This document shows, piece after piece, positions 5,833-63,469 of a stretch of 64,000 nt of DNA. The notes under the pieces are model-generated. The model saw nothing but the letters and a program-made list of their open reading frames with translations, had not been told where the DNA came from and searched no databases. Origin of the DNA: Clostridia bacterium (GTDB lineage: Bacteria; Bacillota; Clostridia; UBA1381); the NCBI GenBank assembly GCA_017935675.1, contig JAGBHE010000064.1:124001-188000 (forward strand), given 5' to 3'. Numbering within the stretch: the first letter of the stretch is position 1; each line of letters starts with the position of its first letter. Made by a program: the position numbers and the translations under genes.

Positions 5833-5860
5833 GCCTGTCAACTGATTTTTTGAAGATAGA

Positions 5861-40454: not shown

Positions 40455-40491
40455 GGATTTGAGCCGCCTAAAGGCGGCATGGAGGATTATT

Positions 40492-41784: not shown

Positions 41785-43269
41785 TCAGTGATATTTTTTT
41801 CTGAACTGCGTGGGCGTAACGCCTGTGTATTTCCCGAAAACCTTACAAAAATATTTGGAATCGTTAAAGCCGCACAGCCCGGAGATTGCCGCTATGTTTT
41901 TATCTGTGTGAAGAAGCTTTTTTGCTTCCGAGATGCGTATGCTGTTAATATAATGATTAAGCGTGTCACCCGTTATTTTTTTAAAGGTGGTACACAGGTA
42001 ATTTGTATTGACATTACAATGACTTACAATATCAATGATTGATAAATTGGGATTTTGAAAATTGTGCTCTATATAAAACAGGGCCGCCTGCACCATTCTT
42101 TTTTCATCGGTAGCATCTGTATAAAGCTTTATTTTATCAATAAGCGTCAGCATGTAACGGTGCAGCTCAATAATTGAATCCGCCTCAAAAATTCCTGAAA
42201 TATCCTCAAAAATTATGTTGTCATATTCATATGAAATGAAGTAATTCTGGTAGAAGGAATATATTTTTTTTGAAATGTCATAGTATAATTTTTTGGCTGA
42301 TGAGCTAAGGAGCGTTTCGCAGCCCGAAAGAGTGTTAAAAAGCGATTCGGCGGCTTCCGATGCGTTGTCGTATTTTCCCTCTGTAAGCGTTTTGTAAAGC
42401 TCATCCGTAAGCGCTGTGTAATCTGAGCTTTCGGCGGCGGCTTCTTTATAAAAAACAATCGTATTCAGCGGATGAAAAAAAGCTCTGTCTGCGGCGATAA
42501 CAGCGTTCTCATATGACAGATAAGCCAGTGAGGATTTGTTTTCAAAAGAACCCACACCGCATTTAAAATATTCCTCAGAGCCTATTTCCGAGAAAAATCC
42601 GTTAAGGGCGTCATTTACTCTCATTTTGATATCGTTATTTCTGCAATACAGAAGAAGCTTGAAGGTACCTCTGCTTTTTCTTGTGTACATTATCTTCAGA
42701 CCTCTTTTTTCCGATTCAAGGCGGAGAATCTTTTCGGCGTCCGAGGAATATTCGCAGCAGGGAAGAATTATTACAGCCACAATATTTGAATTGCCAAGAC
42801 CGCTTGTTTCCATCCTCCTTTGCAATTCCTCCGGCAGAGCCTTGTTTTTAAATATGTATTCAAGAAGCTGCCCGTCAGCGCTGTTTCCGGAGCCCCGAGG
42901 CAGCGAAGCGATTGCTTTTTCTATTGCCGCGCATAATTCCCCGGGATCAATCGGTTTTTCTATATAATCGACAGCATTGAGTTTTATAGCGGTTTTTAAT
43001 GTCATTTTATCCGTGAATCCGGTGAGGAAAATAATTTTACAGTCGGGGAAAGCCTTGATTATTTCCGAAGCCAATTCCGTGCCTGTCATTTTAGGCATTC
43101 GTATGTCGGTAAGTATAATATCGGGTTTAAAATCCGCAGTAATCTTGAGGGCTTCGGCACCGTTGGCAGCTTCAAGAAGAAGGACATTTTCCTTGAACGA
43201 ATGCTTTATTATATTTTTAATCAGCTTTCTTGAAGGAGTTTCATCATCAACAATCAGAATGTTTATCAT
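41785..43269 (-). CDS. Response regulator with AraC-type DNA-binding domain (YesN-like)
   Basis: A 494-residue regulator. The receiver domain (1-120) has acidic residues Asp8/Asp9, phospho-acceptor Asp55 (IILTDIRMPKMTG), a Thr at FLTGF and Lys in YIEKP. A long middle region (about 150-380) of the kind seen in YesN proteins is followed by a C-terminal AraC double helix-turn-helix (about 395-494, LSIIDIVSHCNVNTNYLCTT and AAISGLCGFNDSKYFCKVF). It overlaps its sensor kinase by 23 bases. The family activates the neighbouring sugar transporter operon, which here starts divergently at 45232. Confidence 0.95.
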   Translation of the reverse strand: MINILIVDDETPSRKLIKNIIKHSFKENVLLLEAANGAEALKITADFKPDIILTDIRMPKMTGTELASEIIKAFPDCKIIFLTGFTDKMTLKTAIKLNAVDYIEKPIDPGELCAAIEKAIASLPRGSGNSADGQLLEYIFKNKALPEELQRRMETSGLGNSNIVAVIILPCCEYSSDAEKILRLESEKRGLKIMYTRKSRGTFKLLLYCRNNDIKMRVNDALNGFFSEIGSEEYFKCGVGSFENKSSLAYLSYENAVIAADRAFFHPLNTIVFYKEAAAESSDYTALTDELYKTLTEGKYDNASEAAESLFNTLSGCETLLSSSAKKLYYDISKKIYSFYQNYFISYEYDNIIFEDISGIFEADSIIELHRYMLTLIDKIKLYTDATDEKRMVQAALFYIEHNFQNPNLSIIDIVSHCNVNTNYLCTTFKKITGDTLNHYINSIRISEAKKLLHTDKNIAAISGLCGFNDSKYFCKVFGKYTGVTPTQFRKKYH

Positions 43270-45010
43270 CCGTTCCGTCCCCCTTTATTTTAATAATTAT
43301 TTTTGTATATTTCCCGGCTTCACTTTCTATATCAAGCCCGCAGTCAGGCCCGAAAAACAGCTTTAAACGCTTGTCGGTATTTGAAAAGCCTATGCCGCTT
43401 ACATTACCCTGCTTTAATGCGTTTACTTTTTCAGTCGGAATACCTGCTCCGTCATCGGTAACATAAACGAATATATCCTCTCCCGTTTTTTCTCCGGTGA
43501 TAACAATTGTTCCGCAGGCATTGTCCTTTTCAAGTATTCCGTGATTTATCGCATTTTCAATAATCGGCTGCAATGTGATTTTCGGCATACGGCATTTTAA
43601 AATATCATTGGGAACGTCAGTTTCAAGGAGTATTGCATTATCATGCTTGAAGTTTTCTATTTCAACATAGTGACGGATATGATTTATTTCGCTTTCAAGA
43701 GTTGCAAGACCTCCCGAATTGTGCAGACTGAATTTATAAAACTGCGATAATGACCTGATGATGCTTGAAATATCCTCTGTGCGGTTATCCATTGCCAGCG
43801 ACTGTATTGTATTCAACGTATTATATAAAAAGTGCGGTTTTATTTGGAGCTGAAGAAGATCAAGCTCATATTTTTTTTCCTGCTTTGTGTAATCCGTATT
43901 GTATTTCATAAGCCTTTTTAATGTTACAAGCATATGATTGTAAGCGCCTATGGCGTCAGCCACTTCATTTTCCTTCGCTTCAAAATCGATAAAGGGAAGT
44001 GATTCGGGAGAGCTGAAATCCGCTTTTTTCATACCGTATATCAAGGCTTCAATCGATTCTGTGAGAGATGAGCTTACATGGCTTGATAACAGAAATGCAA
44101 CGGCAAAGATTATAAGCATAATTACCGAAAGGAGCAAAAGCATAACAATATTTGTTTTGTAAATGCTTGCCGTATTGTACAGCGAAATTATCATATAGTG
44201 GTCATTGCAGAAGCTTTTTTTTGCCGTGCGGTAGGTGTGTTTGTCCGAAAGCCTGAGGGTTACCGGCGAAGAGCCGTTTTCAAGGCTGTTCATAAGCTCC
44301 GTATCGTGCTCGGTATAATTATGACTGTCGGAGGAATATATAATATCACCGTTTTTATTGCACAGAATATTTACGGAATCAATTATGGAAATGTTATCAA
44401 GAGCTGTTTTGAATGCGGAAACATCGGCTGATATTTTTATATATCCCACAATTCTTGTATAGTCTGTTACATCGTAAATGGGGTTGATAATAAATACGCA
44501 GCTGCTTTTATCTGATGTTTCACTGAGATAGTAAAAGGTATTTCCGCAGCTTTTCATGTCATTGAACCATTCCTCACGTTCAATCAAATCACAGCTCAGC
44601 GTAGTGTAGCTGTCAAAATAGATTGATTTGTTATCCTCCGCTGCGTATATCCGAATGTCAACGGGAAAGCTGCAGCTGCTTTGGATTACAGGTATAGTGT
44701 TTGTTATATATAGATAGTTGTGGTATCTTTCAAAGACATCATCAGCCTCGCGGGACGACAGAACATCGGGTATTTGCGTGCTGTAGGATATGTAATAAAG
44801 AATACTTTCCATCTGATTAATGAATTTTGTAACATGAAGCGAGGTTATGTTTGCCGAATACTCCATGTTCCTGACGGTATCATCATATGATTTGAAAAGT
44901 GTATACACGGAGAATATCAGGAAAAACAAGCATGCGCTTATCAATGTCAGCAGGAGCTGAGACGCGAATATCCTTGACCGTATGCCGGACGATTCTTTTG
45001 ACAGACGCAC
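43247..45010 (-). CDS. Sensor histidine kinase (YesM-like)
   Basis: A 587-residue membrane sensor with two transmembrane helices (near the N-terminus, about 15-37, and about 290-312) flanking an extracellular Cache-like domain, then HAMP and a His_kinase/HATPase pair. The phospho-acceptor is His in QLQIKPHFLYNTLNTIQ, and the ATP lid region contains TDDGAGIP and GIGFSNTDKRL. Start: GTG at 45010 has AAAGGGG 8 bases upstream; an ATG at 45028 has no recognisable site. It likely senses an extracellular oligosaccharide or a binding-protein complex and signals to the overlapping response regulator gene. Confidence 0.94.
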   Translation of the reverse strand: MRLSKESSGIRSRIFASQLLLTLISACLFFLIFSVYTLFKSYDDTVRNMEYSANITSLHVTKFINQMESILYYISYSTQIPDVLSSREADDVFERYHNYLYITNTIPVIQSSCSFPVDIRIYAAEDNKSIYFDSYTTLSCDLIEREEWFNDMKSCGNTFYYLSETSDKSSCVFIINPIYDVTDYTRIVGYIKISADVSAFKTALDNISIIDSVNILCNKNGDIIYSSDSHNYTEHDTELMNSLENGSSPVTLRLSDKHTYRTAKKSFCNDHYMIISLYNTASIYKTNIVMLLLLSVIMLIIFAVAFLLSSHVSSSLTESIEALIYGMKKADFSSPESLPFIDFEAKENEVADAIGAYNHMLVTLKRLMKYNTDYTKQEKKYELDLLQLQIKPHFLYNTLNTIQSLAMDNRTEDISSIIRSLSQFYKFSLHNSGGLATLESEINHIRHYVEIENFKHDNAILLETDVPNDILKCRMPKITLQPIIENAINHGILEKDNACGTIVITGEKTGEDIFVYVTDDGAGIPTEKVNALKQGNVSGIGFSNTDKRLKLFFGPDCGLDIESEAGKYTKIIIKIKGDGTDDKHSDC

Positions 45011-45175
45011 AAGCTTCACCCCTTTCATTAGGTAAAATGCGGAATGCGTAATTCGGAATTTAAGAAAAACGCAGTTTTACAATCACCTAAAGTATACCAT
45101 AGCAAAAAAATGTTGTCAAGCGAAAAATAAAAATACATAATATTACACCGCACGTTATAAAAGTACACTTTACAT

Positions 45176-45205
45176 TTGAAAAAGCACATGCTAAAATTAT
45201 ATTAT
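45176..45205 (+). promoter_or_regulatory. Probable promoter of the glycan-utilisation operon
   Basis: TTGAAA (45176-45181) and TATTAT (45200-45205), spacer 18, about 27 bases before the first start codon. The weak -35 box fits activation by the adjacent AraC-type regulator. The rest of 45029-45175 is AT-rich with a short palindromic stretch near 45038-45060. Confidence 0.5.
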
Positions 45206-45231
45206 ATTTAAAGTTATGATGAAAGGGGCAG

Positions 45232-46728
45232 ATGAAAATGTTAAAAATGATGAAAAGACTGTGTGCCGGTATTTTAAGTGTGGCTCTGGCGTCGGCAATA
45301 TGTGCCTGCGGCAGCGAAAAAAAGGAGGGCGGCGAGATAACAAGACTGAAAATGATTCTGCCGGGAGATAAGCCCGCAATTTATGATGAGATATACGGGA
45401 AGCTTAATGAAATGCTTCGTGAGGACATCGGCGCGGAGCTTGAGGTGGAATATTATAATTACAGCGATCTTAATCAGAAATATTCCCTGCTGTTTTCTTC
45501 CGGTGAGGAATGTGATATTGTGTTTGCGGCAGACTGGCTTCAATATAATCAGCAGGCTTCAAAAAACAGCTTCATGGAAATAACGGATGATATGTTAAAG
45601 GAATATGCGCCGAAAACCTATGAGACGCTGACGGAGATAATAAAAAATGAGGCAAGTGTAAACGGGAAGCTGTATATGATTCCGAACACCGCAAAGGAAT
45701 ACAGCGAAAATGTCGTTTTGATACGCGGTGATTTAAGAGAGAAATACGGTCTCGGAAAGCTTAATGATATTAATGATTTTGAAAAATATCTTACTATGAT
45801 AGCCGAGAAAGAAAGCGATATTATTCCTGTTGTGGATCTGGCATTGTCGGGGCTCTGGACGCGTGACGCGGTTATTGCAATACCGCCGTCAACGGAGCTT
45901 GCCTATGACATAGAAAAGGATGAATTTGTTAAAAAGGATTATCAGGACTGGTATATAAACAGCGTTAAAAAAACAAGAGAGCTGGTGGACAAGGGAGTTA
46001 TTCCTGCTGATATATCGGTAAACAAGACTACAGGCAGCATGTTTGAGAACGGAAAAGCGGCTACATATGTCAAAAATCTTGAAACGTCGTCAAGCATGGC
46101 AAAAAAGCTCAGGGCTTCTCATCCCGAATGGAAAATAGAGATGTACAGCTTTAAGAAAGATGTTCCGAAGGTTATAAACTCATCTATTTCAAACGGTCTT
46201 TCACTGAACAGAATCTGTAAAAATCCTGAAAAGGCTTTGCAGACAATAGAGCTTCTGAGAAACGATAAAAGATATTTTGACCTTACATGGTACGGCATTG
46301 AAGGCAAGCATTGGCAGGCGGAGGGTGACAGGGGATATATATCCCTTAATGATTCTTTGCCCGCTGAAGAAAAATATGTTGCAGGAGCTGTCTGGGGCTG
46401 GAAAAATGAAAGCATGCTGAGACGTGACAGCTCGGAAATACCCGAAAAGCAGGAGATTCTCGATGCATGGGAGCAGGTAACCGTTGATTCTGACATATAC
46501 GGCTTTACCTTTGATGATACCAACGTAAAAACTGAAATAGCTACCGTAAAGAGCACTGCATCGCAATACGGCGGACCTCTTTACAACGGAATGGTGGCTG
46601 CCGGAGAAATAGACAAAGCATTTTCGGAGTATCAGAAAAAGCTTGAGCAGGCAGGCATTGATAAAATATATGACGAGGTCACGAGACAGTATAAGGAATA
46701 TCGTGAAAAAAAAGATGCGGGGAAATAA
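45232..46728 (+). CDS. Extracellular solute-binding lipoprotein (LplA type)
   Basis: A 498-residue family 1 sugar-binding lipoprotein with lipobox AICAC (cysteine at about residue 26). It captures oligosaccharides for the two permeases that follow. Typical features are the N-terminal LKMILPGDKP strand, ECDIVFAADW and the C-terminal DUF3502-like region ending YQKKLEQAGIDKIYDEV. RBS AAAGGGG lies 4 bases before ATG 45232 and 10 before ATG 45238, so either may be used. No ATPase gene is nearby; such systems commonly share a distant MsmK-type ATPase. Confidence 0.93.
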   Translation: MKMLKMMKRLCAGILSVALASAICACGSEKKEGGEITRLKMILPGDKPAIYDEIYGKLNEMLREDIGAELEVEYYNYSDLNQKYSLLFSSGEECDIVFAADWLQYNQQASKNSFMEITDDMLKEYAPKTYETLTEIIKNEASVNGKLYMIPNTAKEYSENVVLIRGDLREKYGLGKLNDINDFEKYLTMIAEKESDIIPVVDLALSGLWTRDAVIAIPPSTELAYDIEKDEFVKKDYQDWYINSVKKTRELVDKGVIPADISVNKTTGSMFENGKAATYVKNLETSSSMAKKLRASHPEWKIEMYSFKKDVPKVINSSISNGLSLNRICKNPEKALQTIELLRNDKRYFDLTWYGIEGKHWQAEGDRGYISLNDSLPAEEKYVAGAVWGWKNESMLRRDSSEIPEKQEILDAWEQVTVDSDIYGFTFDDTNVKTEIATVKSTASQYGGPLYNGMVAAGEIDKAFSEYQKKLEQAGIDKIYDEVTRQYKEYREKKDAGK

Positions 46729-46731
46729 TAA

Positions 46732-47688
46732 ATGAGACGAGCAAATAATGTTAAAGCATACAAAGCGCTGAAGAAAAGAAGCCTTTGGCAGGAGATATGC
46801 CGGTATAGGGTGCTATGGCTGATGGCCATGCCTGCCATAATCTATGTTTTGCTGTTTTCTTATACGCCGATGGCGGGAATAGTGCTTGCATTTAAGAAAT
46901 ACGACTATGCATCAGGGATTTTCAAAAGCCCCTGGTGCGGTCTTGAAAATTTTAAATTCTTTTTCAAGAGCGGTCAGGCGGCGGTGGTTACAAGAAATAC
47001 ATTTTTGTATAATATAGCTTTCATATTTCTCGGGAACTTTCTGCAGATGATAACGGCTGTTTTTTTGTCGGAAATGAGGAATAAATATTCTAAAAAGCTT
47101 GCTCAGACGTGTATATTTTTCCCGTACTTCATATCCTGGGTAGTTGTCGGCGCGTTTATATATAACATATTCAGCGTAGATTACGGAGTGCTTAACAATA
47201 TTCTGAAATCCATGGGCGCTGAGCCGGTAAACGTATATACACAGCCGAGGTACTGGCCGTTTATAATTACGGTGATTGACCTCTGGAAGGGAGTAGGATA
47301 CGGCTCTGTAGTATATCTTGCGGCAATATCGGGATTGGATACGTCTATATATGAGGCGGCGGAAATAGACGGCGCAAGTCTTGTAAAGCGCGTTTACTAC
47401 ATAACAATGCCAATGCTTCGCTCTACCATGATAACGCTTATCCTTCTCGGTCTCGGAAGAGTTTTCAGAGGAAACTTCAGTATGTTTTATCAGCTGGTCG
47501 GCAACAACGGCGTGCTGTATAACCATACGGACGTTATAGACACGTTTGTTTTCAGGACGCTTCTGTCCTCAAACGATATCGGAATGTCGGCGGCAGTCGG
47601 ATTGTATCAGTCGGTGTTATGTTTTGTGTTTATAATGATGGCGAACGGTGTTATTAAAAAGATAGATGACAGCAGTGCGCTGTTTTAA
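46732..47688 (+). CDS. Sugar ABC transporter permease (LplB type)
   Basis: A 318-residue membrane protein with about six transmembrane segments, beginning at RVLWLMAMPAIIYVLLFSYT (about 27-46). The cytoplasmic EAA loop is EAAEIDGASLVKRVYYITMP (about 219-238). It forms the translocation pore with the next gene's product for oligosaccharides bound by the preceding lipoprotein. It starts 3 bases after the binding-protein stop. Confidence 0.95.
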   Translation: MRRANNVKAYKALKKRSLWQEICRYRVLWLMAMPAIIYVLLFSYTPMAGIVLAFKKYDYASGIFKSPWCGLENFKFFFKSGQAAVVTRNTFLYNIAFIFLGNFLQMITAVFLSEMRNKYSKKLAQTCIFFPYFISWVVVGAFIYNIFSVDYGVLNNILKSMGAEPVNVYTQPRYWPFIITVIDLWKGVGYGSVVYLAAISGLDTSIYEAAEIDGASLVKRVYYITMPMLRSTMITLILLGLGRVFRGNFSMFYQLVGNNGVLYNHTDVIDTFVFRTLLSSNDIGMSAAVGLYQSVLCFVFIMMANGVIKKIDDSSALF

Positions 47689-47712
47689 ATGGGTCGAACG
47701 GAGGATTTCAAA

Positions 47713-48621
47713 ATGGATAATGAAGAAAATAAATCAATGCCGAAAAATCCGGCGGATAAGGCGTTTGTTGTATTTTCATATGCTTTTTCAATATTTATGG
47801 CGTTGCTGGGAGTGCTGCCGTTTATTATGCTCATATCCGGCTCGTTTACATCCGAGGCATACATAATCAATCACGGCTATTCCTTTTTCCCGGGTGAATT
47901 TTCACTTGAGGCATATAAAGGAATATTCCGGAATTCAGCTAAGGTTATTGACGCATATGAGATTACTGTTTTTACGACGGCAATAGGAATATTGGTGACG
48001 CTGATATTCACGTCAATGACGTCATATGTGATTTACAGGAGAGATTTTCCCTGGAGGAACAAGCTGGCATATTTTTTGTTTTTCACAACGCTGTTCAGCG
48101 GCGGACTGACTCCGTATTATATGCTCATGATGAAGCTTGGTATGAAAAATAATATTGCCGCTCTTATAGTGCCGCACATGCTTTCTGTTTTTAATATTCT
48201 GATAGTCCGGAACTTTATGAACGGACTGCCGTATGAGATTGTTGAGGCAGCAAAGATAGACGGGGCAAACGATTTTCAGATCTACACTACAATAATAATG
48301 CCGCTTATTAAGCCGGTGTTGGCGACAATAGCGCTTTTTGTGGGTTTGGAGCTGTGGAATCAATGGTATCAGTGTATGCTTTTTGTCAGCGATTCAAAGC
48401 TCTTTACATTGCAGTATTATTTATATAATATGCTGAATAACGCCACGGCAATGAAGGAGCTGATGAGCGGCGCAAATGTAGATACCTCGTCAATAGATAT
48501 TCCGCAGGAGAGCACAAAGCTCGCCATGACAATGATTGCCGCCGGCCCTGTGCTGCTGCTCTATCCCTTTGTTCAGAAATATTTTGTAAAAAGCATTACG
48601 GTCGGAAGTGTAAAGGGCTGA
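47713..48621 (+). CDS. Sugar ABC transporter permease (LplC/YtcP type)
   Basis: A 302-residue permease, second pore subunit, with six predicted transmembrane helices and the EAA loop VEAAKIDGANDFQIYTTIIM (about 177-196) followed by PLIKPVLA. Start: ATG 47713 has GGAGG 8 bases before it, whereas the ATG at 47689 directly abutting the previous stop has none. It is followed 18 bases later by the first secreted glycosidase gene, showing that uptake and surface breakdown are in one operon. Confidence 0.95.
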   Translation: MDNEENKSMPKNPADKAFVVFSYAFSIFMALLGVLPFIMLISGSFTSEAYIINHGYSFFPGEFSLEAYKGIFRNSAKVIDAYEITVFTTAIGILVTLIFTSMTSYVIYRRDFPWRNKLAYFLFFTTLFSGGLTPYYMLMMKLGMKNNIAALIVPHMLSVFNILIVRNFMNGLPYEIVEAAKIDGANDFQIYTTIIMPLIKPVLATIALFVGLELWNQWYQCMLFVSDSKLFTLQYYLYNMLNNATAMKELMSGANVDTSSIDIPQESTKLAMTMIAAGPVLLLYPFVQKYFVKSITVGSVKG

Positions 48622-48639
48622 GTGATGAGGGGGTATTAT

Positions 48640-51393
48640 ATGCGTATACTGAAAATTATACTGATTTTTGCTTTGGTGCTTTCATCGGTCACGCCGCGGC
48701 TTTATGCGGAGAATATCGGAGAGGGAATAAATGTGCCGGCGGTTTTCCGCGATGACGCGGCAATGATACCTGTCAGCTGCTTAAGCCGGGCGGGAATTGA
48801 CGTAACTATGATAGGCGCAAGCCGTGTAATGCTCAGCAGACAGGATGTTATGATAATAGCTGAGGACGGATGCAACACCGTTTTTGTAAACGGCGTTGAA
48901 GAAACATGCGACCCGGCTCCGTATTCAGAGGCGTCGGAGCTGTATGTGCCGGCGGAAAAAATACTTCATTATTTCGGATACGGTGTTGAAGCCGATGGTG
49001 ACAGTATAAAGATAAAGGCTGTTTCCGAGCTTGAAAAAATGATGGCGGAGGCAGAAACGGTTGACGGAATGTATCTTGGCGGCGAGCTTTTGGGGAACGC
49101 TTCCTTTGAAGATGATTTTATGCTTTGCGGAGGATGGGCGAACCGTGTAAACTGCCGTGTTTCTCAGACAAGCGAGCAGGTGGTCGACGGGGAGTTTGCC
49201 GGACTTGTTACGGAACGTACAATGGGCTGGTCGTCTATAACTCAGGATGTATGCGCGGCATTGCAGGATAACGGGAAGGGCAAATACCGTATTTCCGGAT
49301 ATCTGCGCACAAAGGATGAGCCGTGTGAAATGAGACTGGATCTTGTAACAACAAATTCCGCATCGCAGAAGACGAGCTTTTATGATGTGAAAACCGTTGA
49401 TAATACGGATTGGACGTATTTTGAATTTGTAAGCGATATTCAGTGGGAGCTTGACCTTGTAGAAGCAATATTTTACGCCGAGGCAACATCGCATACGGGC
49501 AAAGCCTGTGAGGTGCAGGATTATTACATAGATAACTGCAGCCTCAGAAAGCTTATGACCGCGGAGGAATATGCGGAAAATCTTAAAAAGCTGCTTGCGG
49601 CTGATGAAATTGAAGAGAAAAGAACGGCAAATGCTGAAAAATACCGGCAGCTCAGCGAAAAGCACAGCAAGGATAAAATGGTGAGCGTATATCCGGAGGA
49701 AAACAGAGAGGTGCTGATAAATCCATATAAGGGACTTATGATGTATCCGTATTATACAGCTTTGTTTTCGGGTGACATGTCAAAAGGCGCCGGGAAAATA
49801 GCCGGATTGATGTATATGCGTCATGCTTGGTCATTAATTGAGCCTGAGGAGGGTAAGTACAGGTGGGATATAATAGACGCAAATCTGGAGTTTTGCCGGA
49901 AGAACGGCATACAATACGGCATAGGTCTCGGTTCCACCATAAACTTTAACTCGAATACAAACTTTAATCAGGATACTCCCGAATGGGTTTTTGAGGCGGG
50001 CGCAGAGTATACCGTAGAGGATATGGGAAACGGATGCGTTTTGAAAATTCCGGTTTATGAGGACCCGGTTTTCCGTGAAAAAATGCAGAATATGATAGAC
50101 GCCTTTGCCGAAAGATACAATGATAATGAAACCTTTGCATATGTAGATATGAGAAACTACGGAAACTGGGGCGAATGGCATTTTTATCAGCTGCCGGTCA
50201 ACCGTGAGCTGGCGTCAAAAAGAAGTCAGAAGGAACTGTTTGAGCTGATTGATATGTGGAAAAACGTAAGGCTTCCCCTTTTGTCCTTTGTGGCGCGGCG
50301 GGATGTTTCGCAGTATGCCCTTGATACTCTCGGAGCAGGCGTCCGCGCAGACGGTGTAATGAATCCTGAGCTCCTTGATAATCATAAGAACTTTGAAATT
50401 GTTAAAAATAAAGCCATTGCCGTTGCCGAATGGTTCGCGAACAGTGCCGCCGTGTATCTTCCCGGAGGCAAGTATGAAAAATATTACGGTTATATGCCGA
50501 TTTTTTATGAAAGAGTTGTTACCGAGGGGGCGGTAAGCATGATGGCGTTTGCGAACTGGGCGCCTGAAGAGGCATATGAGAATTGGCCCGACTTATACAA
50601 AAGAATGGCTAACCTTATAGGATATTGGTATAAGCCCGTAAAAATAGAGCATTCGGAGGATATTACACATGGTCTTATTAAGATGAGAATAAAAAATGAC
50701 GGAGTTGCGCCGCTTTTTGCCGGACGTGATAAAAATGCGTGTGTAAAGCTGGCGTTAGCCGACAGTGACAACAATATTTTAGATACGGTTGTTCTTGACG
50801 GAGTAGACCCGATAGACTGGCTTGTGGGAGAATATACTGAATGTGCCGCAGAATATAAATTTGAAAACACAGAGGGCGGCATGAAGCTTTTGCTGGGTGT
50901 ATTTACAAGAGAATCAAATGAAAAGCCAAACGTTAAGCTCGGAATAAAGGCTGAGATTACAGACGGATGGTACGATATAAGCTCTATGAGCACAAGCGAT
51001 TTGTCGGATTTGTCGCATAACAAGCTTTACAAGGCCACGCAGCTCTATGCCGATGATGAGTACGGCTTCAGACGTCCGGAGCATGCCTTTGACAGAGACG
51101 AAGAAACCTTCTGGGCAAATAAATGCAGGAGCGGGGAGTATTTGGAGATTGATTTCGGAGAGCAAAAAAGCGTTTCATCCGTGAACATAAAAAGCGTTGA
51201 TACAGCAAAGATAAAGCATTCCGTATGGTATCTTGCCGGTAATAATAAATGGGTAAAGGCCGCGGACGGCGCAAGTCTTGCCGCAAGAGGAGCGACGCTG
51301 AAATTCAAGGCGGTGAATACACGGAAGCTTCGCATAATGATTGACGAAACAAAGGACGCGGTTTTCAGATTGAAGGAAATCACCGTAAAATAG
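48640..51393 (+). CDS. Secreted DUF4832-type putative glycosidase A with stalk, CBM-like and F5/8C domains
   Basis: A 917-residue exported protein: signal peptide (1-24, ending RLYA); copper-amine-oxidase-like stalk (about 27-130); CBM4/9-like jellyroll (about 145-300, starting ELLGNASFEDDF); a TIM-barrel of the DUF4874/DUF4832 kind (about 345-640, NPYKGLMMYP and later MRHAWSLIEPEEGKY); an Ig-like domain (640-770); and a C-terminal F5/8C domain (about 790-917). Two conserved glutamates in barrel positions expected for strands 4 and 7 are Glu512 (YGNWGEWHF) and Glu597 (AVAEWF), as in retaining clan-A glycosidases. Activity is not established for the family. ATG 48640 has GAGGGGG 6 bases upstream. 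Paralogue at 57081. Confidence 0.82.
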   Translation: MRILKIILIFALVLSSVTPRLYAENIGEGINVPAVFRDDAAMIPVSCLSRAGIDVTMIGASRVMLSRQDVMIIAEDGCNTVFVNGVEETCDPAPYSEASELYVPAEKILHYFGYGVEADGDSIKIKAVSELEKMMAEAETVDGMYLGGELLGNASFEDDFMLCGGWANRVNCRVSQTSEQVVDGEFAGLVTERTMGWSSITQDVCAALQDNGKGKYRISGYLRTKDEPCEMRLDLVTTNSASQKTSFYDVKTVDNTDWTYFEFVSDIQWELDLVEAIFYAEATSHTGKACEVQDYYIDNCSLRKLMTAEEYAENLKKLLAADEIEEKRTANAEKYRQLSEKHSKDKMVSVYPEENREVLINPYKGLMMYPYYTALFSGDMSKGAGKIAGLMYMRHAWSLIEPEEGKYRWDIIDANLEFCRKNGIQYGIGLGSTINFNSNTNFNQDTPEWVFEAGAEYTVEDMGNGCVLKIPVYEDPVFREKMQNMIDAFAERYNDNETFAYVDMRNYGNWGEWHFYQLPVNRELASKRSQKELFELIDMWKNVRLPLLSFVARRDVSQYALDTLGAGVRADGVMNPELLDNHKNFEIVKNKAIAVAEWFANSAAVYLPGGKYEKYYGYMPIFYERVVTEGAVSMMAFANWAPEEAYENWPDLYKRMANLIGYWYKPVKIEHSEDITHGLIKMRIKNDGVAPLFAGRDKNACVKLALADSDNNILDTVVLDGVDPIDWLVGEYTECAAEYKFENTEGGMKLLLGVFTRESNEKPNVKLGIKAEITDGWYDISSMSTSDLSDLSHNKLYKATQLYADDEYGFRRPEHAFDRDEETFWANKCRSGEYLEIDFGEQKSVSSVNIKSVDTAKIKHSVWYLAGNNKWVKAADGASLAARGATLKFKAVNTRKLRIMIDETKDAVFRLKEITVK

Positions 51394-51414
51394 CAGGGAG
51401 TTGAAGAAAAGGCC

Positions 51415-55741: not shown

Positions 55742-55753
55742 GGAGTATGCATT

Positions 55754-57079
55754 ATGAAATTATTAGGGAAAACATGTACGGCGGCGATGCTTTTCATAAT
55801 CCTTTCGGCGGCAGCTTGCCGCGCCGAAGAGCCGGTGAATGTCGTATTGAAGGACTATATGCCCCCCGCACGGACTGTGTACGTGGATGATAATTTTAAC
55901 AATCAGCAGGGCGAGGTTCCCGAGGGGGGAACAGATATAACCGGGGTGCAGGCATATGCGTCATCGGATATTACGGTTGCTGCCGACGGAGACAACAAAT
56001 ATTTAAAGCTCAGCAATTTCGGGGGTTACATATATCCCGTCGGTCAGAATACCATTGACAGCGACAGGCTCACAGTGTCCTTTGATGTGAAAAACGGCTA
56101 TGGGGACAACGGAAACTTCAACGCTCCGGTAGTGCTTATCGGACGTATGAAAAGCGCGTATTCGGCGGCGGAATTTGCACGCTTCAATACATGGAATGCA
56201 TCTATTCAGGGGCAGTTCGATTTAAATAATTCCACAGATAAAACCTCCGGCTTTACAGTGCCGAAGGACGAATGGTTTAATGTGACGGTTACATTTGAGA
56301 GAAAGCTTAAGGAGGACGGCTCCGGCTATGAGGTTTTTGTAACCAAATGCATAATTAACGGGAAGATTATCGGGTTAAACACTCTGACGACAGCTTCCTC
56401 ATCTGCTGCGGATTGGTGGAGCCCTAACGAGGGCATGAATACTCTCTCAATAAGAGCGTCCCGCGGCAGCAATGCCGGCGGATATACATGTATAGATAAT
56501 CTGCTTATTTATGAGCCTTTGAATTTTGAGGTTGCGTCCTGCGGCTTCCGCGATGGGGTGTTGATGGCGGAGCTGACCGGGAAATGCATGGCAGATGCAG
56601 ACATAATGCTTGTAGGCGAGAACGGTACATATCAATGTACAACTGAGCTTGCTGACGGAGGTAAAAGCATAATCATCATTCCTCCGGTTGATATTGACCT
56701 TGAAAACAGGTCATATTATGTGGTTATAAACAAGCTTACATCAATAAGCGGAGAGACGGTTTCGGATTATAAAATACTTCTTGAAAAGGAATATTTAAGG
56801 GAGTCAGAGGTTTCGGCATACGTTTCGGACGGAAAAATTGTGGCGTCAGCGTATGTTGAGCCGGTGTCCGGGGGCAGCGTATATATGATTGCAGCGGCCT
56901 GGAAAGGAGAAAAATGCGTTGATATGAAAATTACGGAATGTTCTCTTGCCTCTGCAGGGCAATGTACCGTTGAAACGGAACAGGGCATTTCTGCGGACAG
57001 AGTACAGATATTTTTTATAGACAGCACAGAGAATATGAGGCTTGTATCCGAAGTACACAATATTGAATTGGAGGTTTGA
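55754..57079 (+). CDS. Secreted jellyroll-like glycan-binding protein A
   Basis: A 441-residue exported protein. The signal peptide ends around AAACRA (residues 18-24). A lectin-like beta-sandwich follows (about 36-255) starting YMPPARTVYVDDNFNNQQGE and ending DNLLIYEP, then two smaller beta domains (255-340 Ig-like; 345-441). The first 250 residues match the protein at 59848 along their whole length. The DDNFNN...LKLSNFGGY...FDVKNGYGD...IDNLLIYEP pattern resembles concanavalin-like laminarin/xylan-binding folds. No catalytic residues are evident. Probably a surface glycan-binding protein. Confidence 0.72.
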   Translation: MKLLGKTCTAAMLFIILSAAACRAEEPVNVVLKDYMPPARTVYVDDNFNNQQGEVPEGGTDITGVQAYASSDITVAADGDNKYLKLSNFGGYIYPVGQNTIDSDRLTVSFDVKNGYGDNGNFNAPVVLIGRMKSAYSAAEFARFNTWNASIQGQFDLNNSTDKTSGFTVPKDEWFNVTVTFERKLKEDGSGYEVFVTKCIINGKIIGLNTLTTASSSAADWWSPNEGMNTLSIRASRGSNAGGYTCIDNLLIYEPLNFEVASCGFRDGVLMAELTGKCMADADIMLVGENGTYQCTTELADGGKSIIIIPPVDIDLENRSYYVVINKLTSISGETVSDYKILLEKEYLRESEVSAYVSDGKIVASAYVEPVSGGSVYMIAAAWKGEKCVDMKITECSLASAGQCTVETEQGISADRVQIFFIDSTENMRLVSEVHNIELEV

Positions 57080-57080
57080 T

Positions 57081-59828
57081 GTGAAAAGAATAATCCGTAT
57101 TTTAATGCTTTGTACTTCGCTATGGCTGCTTTCCGTTTCTGTATCTGCATACGGAAATATTGCATGTGAGATTCAGCCCGTGTGGCAGGACGGCACTCCG
57201 GTAAACAGCAGCATCAGCCCCGGCGTTCCTTTTAAGCTGTGCGGCACTGTTACAAACAACGGAAGCAGCGAAAGTGTAAGCTGCAGTGTATACTGCGGAG
57301 TTTATATAAAAAACGAGCTTTATTCTGCATACAAAAGCAGTACCGTAGCCGTAGGTGCGGGAGAAAGCGCAGGCGCTGTATGCAATGCGGAAATACCTGC
57401 GGACATACCGTCAGATAATTATTACATAAAGGGCTTTATTCTTACTGAGGACAATGCATCACCGTTATGCGATTCGCTGAGCTTCAATGCTTCGGGAGCA
57501 TATACTGCTGTTTATGTGTCGGACGGGGTATATCTTGGGGAGAATGTAATAAAAAACGGCTCATGTGAATATGAAAACAGCTTTGCGGACGCCTGGGATT
57601 CGCGTCAAAGCTCACGGCTTGAAAAGAGCGGAAAATATCAGCTTGACGGAAGCTATTCATGTCTTGTAACAGACAGGGAAAACTATTGGGATTCCGTTAC
57701 TCAGGATATAACGGCACGCCTTAAAAAATCAGGACAGTATTATATCAGCTACGCCTTTTGCTCCGATTCCGAAAATTTCGGGGCTTACGGACAGATAAAG
57801 CTTTACGGCGCCGAGAGCGGCACAAAGAGCATATACTGCGGAGCCTCCGCGCCCTCATCGACATCGGGTAACTGGAAGATATACAGCATGGTGAAAACAA
57901 TAGATATATCTGAGGATTTGGTAAGAGCAGAGTTTTATATAGAAAGCGGTGCATCGTTCGCATCGTCTGATTATTATATTGACGGTATATGTATCATGCC
58001 GGTAATCACTCATAAGGAATATATTGCCGATAACGCCGCTGCTGATACAACGGAGAATGACTATGAGGCTCTTGTCCGGAAATATCGAAATCAGACTTCA
58101 AGTGTTTTGTATCCTGCCGAAAGCAGCGATATACTTATAAATCCGTACAAGGGACTGACGGCATATAAGTATAATTCAAATTATGATGATTTGTTGAATT
58201 CAGGTGTGCCCGGGTATTGCGGTACGGTATATACAAGATACAGCTGGAAATATCTTGAGCCGGAAAGGGGCGTTTATAACTTTGAGCCTATCCGTGAAAA
58301 TATCAGAAAGCTTAAGGAAAACGGGCTTATGCTTTGTACGGGGCTTGCGTCAACTCTTAATTATAATTCGCCGTCCTCGTACAATCAGGATACTCCGGAA
58401 TGGCTTTTTTCGGAATGCGGAGCGGAATATGTTCTGCAGCCTATGGGGGACGGAAATTCAATAAAGGTTCCCGTATATAATGATCCGATATTTCTTGAGG
58501 AGTACAAAAAGCTGATTGACGCGTTTGCGGAGGAATTTCGTGACTGCACGGATATTGCATATGTGGATATGCGAAGCTACGGTAACTGGGGAGAGTGGCA
58601 TTTTTCAAATCTCACCGAGTGCAAGGAAAAGGCAAAGGATTATACGCTTGATGATTTGAAAAGGCTTATAGATGTGTATGAAAATGTCAGACAGCCTCTT
58701 GCGGTATTCACGCAGATAGCCGGAATACAGGATTATGCTCTGAAAAAATATAATGCCGGTATCCGTGTTGACGGTACAATGAATCCCGAGCTTTCGGATA
58801 ATCACAGAAGGCTTGCGGCAGACGGCAGAAGCTTTGCCGTCGGTGAGTGGTTTGATCAGCCGACAGCTTTTTACAAAGCGGGATACTATAACGGCACTTA
58901 TTACAGTGACGGCAAGTGGGCGGATTACTTTGACTATATGCCGGTAATGATGGAAAAAACGGTAAAAGAGGGCAGACTCAATTATATGGCAATGGGATAC
59001 TGGGACCCGATACAGTTTTATACCTGCTTCCCCGACTTGTGCAGGCGGCTGGCAAATAAAACGGGATATTGGTTCAAGCCCGTAAAAGTATCTTACCCCG
59101 AGTCCCTTGTAAGCGGTCTGTTTTGTATGACGATGAAAAATGACGGGTATACGGAGCTTTATACAGGATATAAAAGAAACTCGTGTGTAAAGCTTGCTCT
59201 TGCCGATGACGCTGGAAATATTATCGATACCGTAAAGCTGCAGGGTGTGAATCCTGAAAGCTGGAAATCGGGGCAATATACATACGAGGCAGCCGAATAC
59301 GGCTTTTCCTCCTCCGAAAATGCAGGCAAGCTGCTGCTTGGCGTGTTTTCCTCAGAGGATAAGGAAGCTCCTGACATTAAGCTGGGTATAGACTGTGAAA
59401 CAATAAACGGCTGGTACGATCTGTCCTCATGCAGGGAGGCAGGCTCATTATCAGATAACAAGCTTTATACCGAAGCGGAGGCATATGCCGATTACGGCTA
59501 CGGCTACAGAAGTCCGATGTATGCTTTTGACGGCGATGCGGAAACCTTCTGGGCTTGTGAAGCTGTAAGCGGTTCGTATCTGTCGGCAGACTTCGGGGAG
59601 AAGTTTAATATTTCAGCTATTGAATGTAATGCGCCCTGCGCCTCAGGCGCTCCGGTTACGGTATATGCCTGCAGCGGCGGTAAACGGCATATACTTGCAG
59701 AAGGTGTATATCTTAAAGAAGGCAGCAATGTTGTATCCTTTGACAGCATAGAGGCAGACAAAATTATGCTTTGTGTAACCGAAACAGCAGTCGGTGCTGT
59801 AAAAATATCAGAAATTAAGGTAAATTAA
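57081..59828 (+). CDS. Secreted DUF4832-type putative glycosidase B
   Basis: A 915-residue exported paralogue of the protein at 48640. Its N-terminal module is different: a CARDB-like Ig domain (about 26-130, GVPFKLCGTVTNNGSSE) replaces the stalk. Then a CBM4/9-like jellyroll (about 150-315), DUF4874/DUF4832 barrel (about 345-650), Ig-like domain and C-terminal F5/8C domain (about 795-915). The glutamates are conserved at Glu505 (YGNWGEWHF) and Glu589 (AVGEWF). GTG 57081 follows GGAGG (57070-57074) by 6 bases and begins one base after the previous stop codon (TGATGTG). Confidence 0.82.
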   Translation: MKRIIRILMLCTSLWLLSVSVSAYGNIACEIQPVWQDGTPVNSSISPGVPFKLCGTVTNNGSSESVSCSVYCGVYIKNELYSAYKSSTVAVGAGESAGAVCNAEIPADIPSDNYYIKGFILTEDNASPLCDSLSFNASGAYTAVYVSDGVYLGENVIKNGSCEYENSFADAWDSRQSSRLEKSGKYQLDGSYSCLVTDRENYWDSVTQDITARLKKSGQYYISYAFCSDSENFGAYGQIKLYGAESGTKSIYCGASAPSSTSGNWKIYSMVKTIDISEDLVRAEFYIESGASFASSDYYIDGICIMPVITHKEYIADNAAADTTENDYEALVRKYRNQTSSVLYPAESSDILINPYKGLTAYKYNSNYDDLLNSGVPGYCGTVYTRYSWKYLEPERGVYNFEPIRENIRKLKENGLMLCTGLASTLNYNSPSSYNQDTPEWLFSECGAEYVLQPMGDGNSIKVPVYNDPIFLEEYKKLIDAFAEEFRDCTDIAYVDMRSYGNWGEWHFSNLTECKEKAKDYTLDDLKRLIDVYENVRQPLAVFTQIAGIQDYALKKYNAGIRVDGTMNPELSDNHRRLAADGRSFAVGEWFDQPTAFYKAGYYNGTYYSDGKWADYFDYMPVMMEKTVKEGRLNYMAMGYWDPIQFYTCFPDLCRRLANKTGYWFKPVKVSYPESLVSGLFCMTMKNDGYTELYTGYKRNSCVKLALADDAGNIIDTVKLQGVNPESWKSGQYTYEAAEYGFSSSENAGKLLLGVFSSEDKEAPDIKLGIDCETINGWYDLSSCREAGSLSDNKLYTEAEAYADYGYGYRSPMYAFDGDAETFWACEAVSGSYLSADFGEKFNISAIECNAPCASGAPVTVYACSGGKRHILAEGVYLKEGSNVVSFDSIEADKIMLCVTETAVGAVKISEIKVN

Positions 59829-59847
59829 AACGGAAAGGATGATTTTC

Positions 59848-61869
59848 ATGAAACTTTTAAAGAAAATGTGCTTTGCAGGGATGCTTACGTTATGTCTTGC
59901 CTCTGTATGCCATGCAGAGGAGGCTACTCATGTAACGGTGGCAGATTATATGCCGGCTGTAAAAACGGTGTATGTGGACGACGATTTCAATAATCAGCAG
60001 GGCGAAACGCCTGTTGCAGGCGGTTATACCCGCGGGGTACAGGCATATGCCTCTGAAGATATTGCGGTTATGGGGGATGATTCCAATAAATATCTGAAGC
60101 TCAGCAATTACGACGGTTATTTATATCCTATAGCCGGAAATACAATTAAAGGTAACAGGCTGACAATATCCTTTGATGTAAAGAACGGATACGGAGACGG
60201 AGATGTTTTTAATGCACCTGTTATATCGATAGGACGTCCGAAAGACGAAAGCTCATCAGATACGTTTGCAAGACTGAATACATGGAATGATAAAATCCAG
60301 GGACAGTTTGATATTAACAGTTCAGATTACAAGAGCAAAGGCTTTACAGCGCCAAAGGACGAATGGTTCAATGTCACAGTCACATTTGAAAGACGGCTGA
60401 AGGCGGATGCTTCAGCGTATGAGGTTTTTGTGACCGAATGCGTTATAAACGGAAAAAGTGTCGGTCTTAATACACTTGAAGCAAATGCTTCCTCTGTAGC
60501 TGACTGGTGGACTTCAAACGGGGACTTAAGTACGCTTTCAATAAGAGCTGTGAGAAGCAAAGCCGGAGGTTATACATATTTTGATAATCTGCTTATTTAT
60601 GAACCGGAGGACGCTTCAACTCTTGTAACAAAGCCGGACTATATGCCTGAGATAAAGCAGACATTTGCCGATGACAGCTTTGAAAACAGACCTGTTTCTC
60701 CAAAGGATTATAACACTGCTGCTACAAATTATGCAATACCCTATCCCGTAACCTTGGGTAAATATGCATCCGATACCAAAACCGCGACTGCAAGCAATTA
60801 TCAGGGAATGATATTGGAAGAAGAGAGCGGAAACAAATATCTTAAGCATACCTCACGGAGCTACGGACCGTATCTGACAGGCAGCAGCGATACTGACAGG
60901 CTGGCAGTGTCCGTAGACCTGAGCGTTTTGGAAAATGCTTCGAGTAATTGCGATGGATATATATACGTCGGAGAATATGCACCGTTTTATTACAGTATAA
61001 ACAAAACATCAAAGGATATTAATATATTTTATAATAATAATTCCGGAGAGAGTGCGGAATCTTCTTCAACTCATCTTGCATGGAAGGGAACAAGTGCATG
61101 GCATAAGGTTTCATTTGTTTTCAAGCGTGCTGCGGCAGAAAACGGTTATGATGTATATCTGGAAAGCTTCTATGTGGATAACACAAAAATAACAAATGAT
61201 AAATCTGCGGATAAAACAGATATATTAACGGTCAAGTTTTCAAACGTTGATTGGTGGAGTGAGAAAAACATGCTTTTCGGAGTTATCAGTAAAACAGGAA
61301 TTACTATTTCCGACAACATACTTGTTTATGAACCGTCACCTTTTATTGTTAAGGGAATTGAAGCAGCAGACGGCGCGGTTAATATAGAATATACAGACAA
61401 TATAGATACGTCGTCTCTGGGCAGTGTTTCCGCAGCTGTTACCGATGCTGCCGGAAACAGAACAGAACTGAATGTCACAGCCTCAGGAAGGGTTTTAACT
61501 GCCGCATTCGGAAATGCGGAGCCTTGGAAAAAAGGCTACATTCTTACTGTCAGCGGCTTAAAAAATACTGACGGATATACGGCGGCGGATTACAGCACAG
61601 CTATCGGCAGCGGTTTTGTGCTTCTCGAAAATGACAAGCTGTCTGTTGTAAATGGCACCGATACTGTTATGACAGGTAAGATAATGGTTGCCGCGTACAA
61701 GGATGGCAAGCTTATTAATGTATATATCGAAGACGGAAACACAAGTATTCCGGCATATATTACAAGTGAAATCCCATACACTCTTGATAAAACAGATGCT
61801 GATAAATATACAGCTTTTATGTGGGATATGAATTCATTGAAGCCCCTGTTTGGATCAGTAAGCAGGTAA
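59848..61869 (+). CDS. Secreted jellyroll-like glycan-binding protein B, two tandem domains
   Basis: A 673-residue exported protein. Signal peptide ends near SVCHA (about residue 23). The first beta-sandwich (about 33-255) is closely related to that of the protein at 55754. A second, divergent one (about 262-500, starting YMPEIKQTFADDSFENRPVS, ending DNILVYEPS) follows, then an Ig-like domain (500-590) and a C-terminal beta domain (590-673). The repeated YMP...DNxLxYEP framing shows internal duplication. ATG 59848 has AAAGGA about 9 bases upstream. It likely binds the same glycan as protein A with more contacts. Confidence 0.72.
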   Translation: MKLLKKMCFAGMLTLCLASVCHAEEATHVTVADYMPAVKTVYVDDDFNNQQGETPVAGGYTRGVQAYASEDIAVMGDDSNKYLKLSNYDGYLYPIAGNTIKGNRLTISFDVKNGYGDGDVFNAPVISIGRPKDESSSDTFARLNTWNDKIQGQFDINSSDYKSKGFTAPKDEWFNVTVTFERRLKADASAYEVFVTECVINGKSVGLNTLEANASSVADWWTSNGDLSTLSIRAVRSKAGGYTYFDNLLIYEPEDASTLVTKPDYMPEIKQTFADDSFENRPVSPKDYNTAATNYAIPYPVTLGKYASDTKTATASNYQGMILEEESGNKYLKHTSRSYGPYLTGSSDTDRLAVSVDLSVLENASSNCDGYIYVGEYAPFYYSINKTSKDINIFYNNNSGESAESSSTHLAWKGTSAWHKVSFVFKRAAAENGYDVYLESFYVDNTKITNDKSADKTDILTVKFSNVDWWSEKNMLFGVISKTGITISDNILVYEPSPFIVKGIEAADGAVNIEYTDNIDTSSLGSVSAAVTDAAGNRTELNVTASGRVLTAAFGNAEPWKKGYILTVSGLKNTDGYTAADYSTAIGSGFVLLENDKLSVVNGTDTVMTGKIMVAAYKDGKLINVYIEDGNTSIPAYITSEIPYTLDKTDADKYTAFMWDMNSLKPLFGSVSR

Positions 61870-61894
61870 AAAAGTCTGTAATCGGTTTGATAAA

Positions 61895-61930
61895 GCTGCC
61901 CGCCGGTCGAGCCTTCGGCTGACGGGCAGC
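61895..61930 (+). other. Intercistronic stem-loop before the GH31 gene
   Basis: GCTGCCCG (61895-61902) pairs with CGGGCAGC (61923-61930), with an inner GTC/GAC and GCC/GGC stem and a TTCG loop. It has no U-tract, so it is more likely an mRNA-stabilising or processing element than a terminator. Confidence 0.6.
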
Positions 61931-61954
61931 AGTGCAGAGAGAGGATAGATAAGC

Positions 61955-63469
61955 ATGGAAATTATTATGCGGGAAAATGAGTATTGGTGGGGAGGCGCGG
62001 TCTGCGAGGGACATAATATGCCCTACGGAAGAGAAAGCAAGGCGTTCTTTGATTTAAACGGAAGCTTTGAAAATGACCAGTTTGCGCCGGTGTTTCTTTC
62101 AAGCCTCGGAAGATATGTGTGGAGCGAAAGACCGTTCACCGTAAAAATAGAAAACGGAAAAATGGATTTTTGCGGAGCCGGAGATTTTGTTGTATCAGAC
62201 GGTCATGAAAACTTAAAAGGAGCGTACATGGCAGCAATGAAGAAGCATTTCCCGTTTACGGGGAAAATGCCGGACAGGTTATTTTTTAAAATGCCGCAGT
62301 ACAATACCTGGATAGAGCTTGGAACAGAGCAGACAACTGAGAATATTTTAAGCTATGCAAAAAGCATTGTAGACAGCGGCATGCCGCCCGGCGTTTTTAT
62401 GATAGACGGCGGCTGGCAGGAGGACTACGGATATTTTGATTTTAACAGAAGAAAGGTGCCGGACCCGAAGTATCTTACAGACAGCCTTCACAATATGGGA
62501 TTTAAGGTTATGCTGTGGGTTTCGCCGATTGTTGCGTCAGCCGGTGCAAGGTTCAAGGAGCTGAGAAGCAAGGGCTTTCTTGTAAATGACAGCGAGGGAA
62601 GTATAGCCGTAAGGTCATGGTGGAGTGGTTACAGCGCTGTTCTGGATTTTACAAACCCGGAAGCGGTTGATTGGTTTCATTCAAAGCTTGACCGGCTTAT
62701 GGATATTTACGGAATTGACGGCTTTAAATTCGATGCTGGGGACAGAGGATTTTACCGGGATGATGACATGATATATAAGCCTATGCTGGCGCGTGAGCAT
62801 ACAGGCGCCTTTAATGACGCTGGGGAAAGGTACAGCTTCAATGAGTTCAGAGCGGCATATAAGCGAGGCGGCAGACCAATTGTGGCAAGACTGCATGATA
62901 AATATCATTCATGGAACGACAGAGGGCTCAATACCTTGATTCCACATACAATTTTGCAGGGGCTTTGCGGATACGCCTATTGCTGTCCGGACATGGTAGG
63001 AGGCGGTATTCTTGACTGCTTTGCAAAGGGAGCGGCTCTTGACGGGGAGCTGTTTGTGCGCTGGGCTCAGACAAATGCGCTTATGGGAATGATGCAGCTT
63101 TCTGTTTCGTCAAAAAGGGTTCTTAAGCCTGAGAATTTTGCTCTGGCAACCGATGCCGTAAAGCTGCGCATGAAATATTCGGACTATATAACAGAGCTTG
63201 CCGAAAAAGCGGCGTTGTCGGGAGAGCCTATTGTTCGTCATATGGCGTATGAGTTCCCGGGTGAGGGCTTTGAAACCGTAAACGATCAGTTTATGCTCGG
63301 AGGCAGAATCCTTGCCGCACCTGTGCTTGAAAAGGGAAAAAGCATAAAAAACGTAAGGCTCCCGAAGGGACAGTGGAAAGCAAAGGACGGAAAACTCTAC
63401 AGCGGCGGCAGCTATAAAATACCATCGCCGCTTGAGGACGGGGTTCTGTATTTTGAAAAAATAAAATAA
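61955..63469 (+). CDS. Glycoside hydrolase family 31
   Basis: A 504-residue GH31 enzyme (alpha-glucosidase/alpha-galactosidase/alpha-xylosidase superfamily). The nucleophile is Asp260 in GIDGFKFDAGD and the acid/base Asp346 in CCPDMVGGG. It lacks the long N-terminal beta-sandwich and C-terminal domains of many members and has no signal peptide, so it acts in the cytoplasm on imported oligosaccharides. The KFDAGD motif is closer to the MYORG-like branch than to YicI-type xylosidases, so alpha-galactosidase activity is possible. It is the last gene of the locus; a palindrome copy 6 bases after its stop may terminate it. Confidence 0.92.
   Translation: MEIIMRENEYWWGGAVCEGHNMPYGRESKAFFDLNGSFENDQFAPVFLSSLGRYVWSERPFTVKIENGKMDFCGAGDFVVSDGHENLKGAYMAAMKKHFPFTGKMPDRLFFKMPQYNTWIELGTEQTTENILSYAKSIVDSGMPPGVFMIDGGWQEDYGYFDFNRRKVPDPKYLTDSLHNMGFKVMLWVSPIVASAGARFKELRSKGFLVNDSEGSIAVRSWWSGYSAVLDFTNPEAVDWFHSKLDRLMDIYGIDGFKFDAGDRGFYRDDDMIYKPMLAREHTGAFNDAGERYSFNEFRAAYKRGGRPIVARLHDKYHSWNDRGLNTLIPHTILQGLCGYAYCCPDMVGGGILDCFAKGAALDGELFVRWAQTNALMGMMQLSVSSKRVLKPENFALATDAVKLRMKYSDYITELAEKAALSGEPIVRHMAYEFPGEGFETVNDQFMLGGRILAAPVLEKGKSIKNVRLPKGQWKAKDGKLYSGGSYKIPSPLEDGVLYFEKIK

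Follow-up and report, generated by a model that had tools for sequence, protein, structure and literature searches.

A recurrent SLH-anchored protein pair and candidate clan GH-A enzymes in a probable polysaccharide-utilization locus of a gut or rumen Clostridia bacterium

How might a Gram-positive bacterium cut a polysaccharide at its surface, hold it there and bring in the pieces? The question is raised by a run of genes at positions 41785–63469 of a 64,000-nt stretch of DNA (the window) from a gut or rumen Clostridia bacterium (UBA1381; GCA_017935675.1, contig JAGBHE010000064.1, positions 124,001–188,000). The run encodes the regulators YesM and YesN, the CUT1-type transporter LplABC, two secreted candidate glycosidases (D1 and D2), a wall anchor protein (SLH) with its neighbor SCAF, two further secreted proteins (JR1 and JR2) and a cytoplasmic GH31. 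All open reading frames (ORFs) are present and intact, nothing interrupts the run, and the gaps from LplA through JR2 range from −17 to +21 nt, and JR2 is separated from GH31 by 85 nt. These gaps confirm the single tight run described in a first-pass annotation of this DNA, but the start proposed there (43247) truncates YesN, which spans 41785–43269 and adds 1.5 kb at the left end. The accompanying interpretation, a glycan-utilization system with an SLH-anchored surface complex, is supported in part. We consider the run to be, probably, a Gram-positive polysaccharide-utilization locus (PUL), which is an already known kind of system, here combining surface enzymes, an SLH-SCAF pair, import by LplABC and trimming by a cytoplasmic GH31. 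A bolder reading, to which we give roughly one chance in three, is that SLH-SCAF is the Gram-positive counterpart of SusCD, present as ∼70 co-varying pairs per genome with heads tuned to the glycan of their neighbors and thus a marker of PULs, and that D1 and D2 represent a new clan GH-A family.

Three other genomes show the same gene order, at protein identities of 26–69%. An Oscillospiraceae metagenome-assembled genome (MAG), SUG37 (locus L035), carries YesM, LplABC, D1, SLH, SCAF, JR1 and D2 up to the contig end; an uncultured Ruminococcus MAG, RUG11189 (L036), carries YesN through JR2; and a Clostridiales MAG, SUG1652 (G050), has D1-SLH-SCAF-JR1-D2-JR2, then YesM-YesN-GH31, then LplABC with GH39, GH30 and GH3. 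Identities are highest for LplABC (63–69%), followed by D1 (∼50%), SLH and D2 (41%), SCAF (34%) and JR1 (26–29%). That the order has held while the proteins diverged this far argues for selection on the gene set. The earlier proposal of one co-operating set had been staked on synteny in relatives, and both the order in three genomes and a conserved block in the divergent promoter region (see below) bear it out.

The surface pair lies at the center of the run. SLH (51415–53127, plus strand) comprises a signal peptide, a variable head of ∼340 residues, a poly-Gly/Ser linker and three C-terminal SLH repeats (Pfam SLH, 1e-34). SCAF (53111–55741, plus strand) is a secreted protein of ∼880 residues that opens with a divergent SLH trimer; its long remainder is probably β-rich. 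The window SCAF matches no significant Pfam family and itself lacks the TRAE motif; a profile of 41 relatives matches solved SLH trimers (Sap, P. alvei) at E 1e-16, in agreement with its initial description as a divergent SLH-like scaffold. Searched against the bacterium's own genome (G000), a profile of SCAF returns 85 matches, ∼71 of them long paralogues (open frames of at least 720 residues). Examples of such paralogues are found at C3:74732–77347, C15:68494–70857 and C24:61956–64271.

Pairing was assessed at 44 of the ∼71 loci. In 36 of them the gene immediately upstream, in the same orientation, encodes an SLH protein (gap −23 to +86 nt); in three it is the gene immediately downstream that does so (L087, L103 and L104), and in two a canonical SLH trimer and SCAF share one polypeptide (L083:8411–12418 and L094:8462–12565; 1335 and 1367 residues). 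In the other three an SLH protein is also close at hand: in L081 it is the divergent neighbor, in L088 it lies two genes upstream, and in L031/L030 it lies in the adjoining stretch, two genes downstream. Thus, the anchor and scaffold first noted in the window are both present, but they are not special to this system, being one copy of a pair repeated ∼70 times. The recurrent pair appears to be new; an earlier description in SLH-rich Clostridia such as Monoglobus is possible.

The short SLH proteins of these pairs share a common plan: after the signal peptide comes a variable head, in most cases a Gly/Ser linker at about residue 350, and then a conserved SLH trimer. The head is far more variable than its anchor. 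Pairwise distances between heads correlate with those between SCAFs (Mantel r 0.45, p 0.0002), and more strongly than with those between the heads' own anchors (r 0.23). The genome holds 71 SCAFs against 72 ATP-binding cassette (ABC) permease clusters, and 59 of the 71 SCAFs have an ABC permease no more than 15 kb away, as compared with 42.9 for random positions (0 of 1000 draws reached 59). Permeases of all ABC kinds were counted; restricting the random positions to contigs that had hits renders the test conservative. YesM kinases near SCAF were not significantly enriched at 10–15 kb. Among 85 proteins neighboring SCAF are 20 permeases and 8 solute-binding proteins, as well as members of the GH39, GH42, α-L-rhamnosidase, GH88, GH130 and α-L-fucosidase families.

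These patterns bear directly on whether the pairs are instead ordinary S-layer building blocks, variants of which are merely carried by substrate-dependent operons with no part in glycan capture. SCAF counts as a wall protein of SLH type, the same genome is very rich in SLH proteins, and in several other Clostridia the pair stands head to head in isolation, with neither a transporter nor a glycoside hydrolase gene close by, all of which would be expected of an S-layer component. A head that tracks SCAF more closely than its own anchor, an approximate parity of SCAFs and permease clusters at closer than random distance, and the existence of SLH-SCAF fusions would not, and we hold this explanation to be doubtful, if a serious contender. 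SCAF is found in 95 of 95 genomes of the order; across the class, 115 of 245 sampled genomes have a match, in some cases a weak one that may reflect the SLH part alone. Because relatives carry the pair without transporter genes, SLH-SCAF was probably a general S-layer pair at first, with recruitment to sugar loci coming later.

If SLH-SCAF holds a glycan, which proteins cut it? D1 (48622–51393, plus strand) is a secreted multidomain candidate β-glycosidase, in which a Cu-amine-oxidase-N-like domain is followed by a CBM22/CBM4_9-like domain (residues ∼155–312), a clan GH-A-type TIM barrel (residues ∼350–665), a β-sandwich and a C-terminal F5/8-type domain. D2 (57081–59828, plus strand; ∼41% identity to its counterparts) is a secreted paralogue with CBM4_9, GH42-like barrel and F5/8-type regions. 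A longer TTG frame of D2 opens at 57042, but the most likely start is the GTG at 57081, after a GGAGG site, so that D2 does not overlap JR1. Both proteins had been labeled DUF4832; D1 scores 18.7 bits against a Pfam cut-off of 29.2 (PF16116) and D2 has no match, so the label is a loose one. A further copy within this genome (C88) reaches 36.7 bits. The GH42 cut-off (21 bits) is passed by D1 (32.9) and D2 (23.8), although only ∼110 of the 376 profile positions are covered. Likewise, a family profile searched against the PDB retrieves GH42 β-galactosidases at E 3.5e-7 at best, and in neither search did GH42 similarity extend beyond the first part of the catalytic barrel.

An alignment of 28 D1 relatives, taking in Clostridia, Bacteroidota, Spirochaetes, Verrucomicrobiota and others, reveals that Asn515, Gly517, Glu518, His520 and Glu603 are invariant and Arg575 and Asp577 nearly so. 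In the AlphaFold2 model of D1 (predicted local distance difference test [pLDDT] score 88), which contains a TIM barrel, strand β4 (505–510) lies just before Glu518, and Glu603 is on β7 (600–604). Glu518 is therefore a candidate acid/base and Glu603 a candidate nucleophile, in the retaining layout of clan GH-A, where Glu residues occupy the ends of β4 and β7. Foldseek searches with D1 return GH10 xylanases that have CBM22 domains and GH35 β-galactosidases. Whole-chain TM-scores are low because D1 has several domains; the CBM22-like domain gives a good superposition by itself (target TM ∼0.8). The nearest families would be GH42, GH35 and GH10, whose β-galactosidases (GH42/GH35) and xylanases (GH10) share with the D1 model the TIM-barrel layout and Glu residues on β4 and β7, despite weak sequence similarity.

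Could D1 and D2 be binding proteins that have lost catalysis, with cleavage taking place elsewhere? Both contain several binding-type modules, and the top Foldseek matches owe something to the CBM22-like domain. Invariance of both candidate Glu residues together with Asn515, Gly517 and His520 (and nearly of Arg575 and Asp577) across 28 divergent homologues would, however, be unusual for a pure binder, and we find this alternative improbable. Enzymes of clan GH-A cleave β-glycosides or α-L-arabinosides; hence D1 and D2, if correctly modeled as such, probably cut a β-linked backbone or side chain. They could thereby supply the endo-cleavage that is otherwise missing from the run, and the original argument that surface cutting must fall to these two proteins gains weight from the predicted barrel and its two invariant Glu residues. 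A literature search found no paper giving DUF4832 an activity, and D1 and D2 appear to form an unassigned group of clan GH-A enzymes, which would be new and, if real, would add an enzyme family spanning several phyla. The G050 genome also holds incomplete copies of D1 at the ends of two contigs (C81:1–2076 in L025 and C2:26219–27583 in L024); they overlap in the matched region (D1 residues 468–686), so that either D1 is present twice or the assembly is broken within it.

The last gene of the run encodes a GH31 of α-galactosidase type (61955–63469, plus strand; Pfam GH31, E 2e-31), which lacks a signal peptide and is therefore expected to act on imported sugar. Its closest structures are the α-galactosidases 8j50–8j53 (E about 1e-134; 5e-135 for 8j50), followed by MYORG (2e-58). 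Residues Trp119, Asp151, Lys258, Asp260, Arg299, Arg312 and Asp315 align with MYORG Trp321, Asp353, Lys461, Asp463, Arg504, Arg517 and Asp520, so that the nucleophile (Asp260), the acid/base (Asp315) and the galactose-selecting Trp (Trp119) are all kept. The resemblance to these α-galactosidases and MYORG thus covers overall sequence, nucleophile, acid/base, and the Trp and Arg of the sugar site. A difference lies at MYORG Asp354, which contacts the galactose 6-OH (residue roles from PMC9491548). The window GH31 has Gly152 at this position and so misses the acidic contact, as do the G050 enzyme and the closest relative in genome G003, each with Gly; the position is occupied by Asp in Bacteroidales relatives and by Glu or Ala in the GH31s of other Clostridia. 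Because Gly152 replaces Asp, the natural sugar may lack a free 6-OH (for example β-L-arabinopyranose, the same ring minus C6) or be substituted there. In G003 (L135:1545–4455 and 4462–5939), a GH10 gene precedes two tandem GH31 genes, one of which is 61% identical to the window GH31 and has the MIDGGW motif in common with it. In three Bacteroidales loci (L046 and the closely related pair L061 and L065), a single run holds both a DUF4832-type gene and a 40–42%-identical GH31, plus GH3 or GH2 and esterases.

Several observations weigh against the preferred reading of the run as a PUL with secreted enzymes and a glycan-holding surface pair. The occurrence of the pair on its own in other Clostridia means that it may not in itself be a glycan device, and the structure of SCAF predicted from four sequences reaches a pLDDT of only 44. 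D1 falls under the cut-off of its nearest named domain family and D2 outside it. An obligatory link between D1 and GH31 was considered and rejected, since close GH31 relatives exist without D1 or D2. The stake in the SusCD-like reading is considerable. SusC/D pairs made sugar use by Bacteroidota readable from sequence, and we know of no comparable marker for Gram-positive gut bacteria. Were SLH-SCAF such a marker, the glycan diet of many uncultured rumen and gut Clostridia would become predictable and testable.

The remaining genes of the run concern signaling and import. YesN (minus strand) is a response regulator with a receiver and an AraC-type HTH domain (Pfam Response_reg 1e-27, HTH_AraC 7e-20), with orthologues at 41–44% identity in L036 and G050. 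YesM (43247–45028, minus strand) is a membrane sensor histidine kinase (Pfam His_kinase 5e-23) whose orthologues (36–39%) occupy the same position in L035 and L036 and adjoin GH31 in G050. LplA (45232–46728) is a lipoprotein solute-binding protein (SBP and DUF3502 matches; orthologues 64–65%), and LplB (46732–47688; 68–69%) and LplC (47689–48621; 63–67%) are permeases with BPD_transp_1 matches at these positions, all three on the plus strand. The Pfam matches over the run, including three SLH repeats and GH31, back the names first given to YesM/YesN, LplA, SLH and GH31. In the divergent promoter region, a block TTACAC-N3-A-N2-T-N-A-N-AAA-N4-CACTTTAC (45143–45173) lies upstream of and over the −35 element of LplA. 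A consensus scan places a sigma-70-like promoter for LplA onward (TTTACA-17-TAAAAT; a consensus match only) at 45169–45197 on the plus strand. The block is likely a dedicated YesN site, because it is kept in all four loci (the window, L035, L036 and G050) and is the sole match within three mismatches across the bacterium's own genome.

JR1 (55754–57079, plus strand) is a secreted protein particular to this locus type, with orthologues at 26–29% identity in L035, L036 and L037 and no match in the other scaffold loci of its own genome. JR2 (59839–61869, plus strand) is a secreted two-unit relative, 65% identical to JR1 over the first 255 residues. Neither has a significant Pfam or PDB match, which leaves their earlier designation as jellyroll proteins unproven. 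In G050, the D2 counterpart carries a JR-related domain (E 3e-7) as an N-terminal fusion, which links the JR proteins to the enzymes.

A role in glycan utilization, as proposed at first, is backed by the CUT1-type transporter, GH31 and the GH42-like D1 and D2. Transport is provided for by the LplA solute-binding protein and the LplB/LplC permeases, and regulation by YesM/YesN; as for degradation, GH31 belongs to a glycosidase family but is cytoplasmic and exo-type, and D1/D2 combine a predicted retaining-glycosidase fold with conserved Glu residues. The locus might also remodel or recycle the cell's own surface polysaccharide, given that SLH domains bind secondary wall polymers. A DUF4832 protein is, moreover, an accessory gene product of Gram-positive Pel exopolysaccharide clusters (PMC7112168). 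Yet the presence of an importer with a dedicated YesMN pair, and of a GH31 in the cytoplasm, speaks for an inward direction, cytoplasmic GH39, GH30 and GH3 enzymes that the first-pass annotation missed stand beside the set in the G050 relative, and the ORFs and Pfam matches of the run include no glycosyltransferase or synthase; we regard this possibility as remote.

Under the preferred reading as a PUL for outside glycan, YesM would sense a sugar signal and YesN would activate the divergent operon, as their families and the conserved promoter block suggest. Secreted D1 and D2, with their carbohydrate-binding domains, would cut a branched β-linked glycan at the cell surface, where SLH and SCAF, as a wall-anchored pair, may hold the glycan and/or the enzymes near the transporter, with JR1 and JR2 as putative substrate-specific accessory binding proteins. 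LplABC would import the released oligosaccharides, from which GH31, with its catalytic residues in place, would strip α-galactosyl-like caps. Our best guess for the substrate is a branched β-glycan with α-galactosyl-like caps. Galactoglucomannan, xylan and arabinogalactan were weighed as targets; the hints from GH130 (G001), GH10 beside GH31 (G003), acetyl esterases (Bacteroidales) and GH39/GH30/GH3 (G050) conflict, and we settle on none of the three.

Elsewhere in the window are a phage-type integrase (27283–28326); an ECF sigma factor (28847–29335) and a DUF4179 protein (29328–30806), just after which comes a 2017-residue protein (31542–37595) whose domains include bacterial Ig-like and F5/8-type ones; and a two-subunit TPP/POR-type oxidoreductase pair followed by a phenylacetate-CoA-ligase-like gene, the latter read by eye (37963–41730). 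Directly past GH31, on the opposite strand, is a RhuM-family gene (63542–64000) cut by the window end.

By way of comparison, SusC/SusD of Bacteroidota is, like SLH-SCAF, a repeated, co-varying two-gene surface signature found by varied enzymes. There is no sequence relation between the two (no Pfam match to SusC or SusD occurs within the run), and SLH-SCAF is wall-anchored instead of residing in an outer membrane, so the likeness is one of organization only. The Gram-positive PULs of Roseburia/Eubacterium rectale also lack SusC/D homologues, and binding is attributed there to CBMs (PMC5320581). They resemble the window locus in combining at one site a transporter, a regulator and a carbohydrate-active enzyme, the last being predicted for the window; the window locus differs in its recurring pair of SLH protein and SCAF and in main enzymes that lie outside characterized families. 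In Paenibacillus JDR-2, which has 77 SLH proteins, 29 of them with carbohydrate roles, the xylan system consists of an SLH-anchored GH10 and an ABC-import/aldouronate-utilization cluster (PMC4765114). There the SLH repeats are on the enzyme itself, whereas in the window a separate anchor is paired with SCAF and the enzymes have no SLH repeats. Common to both is wall-anchored depolymerization at the surface, a predicted activity in the present case, linked to uptake by an ABC transporter and to trimming in the cytoplasm.

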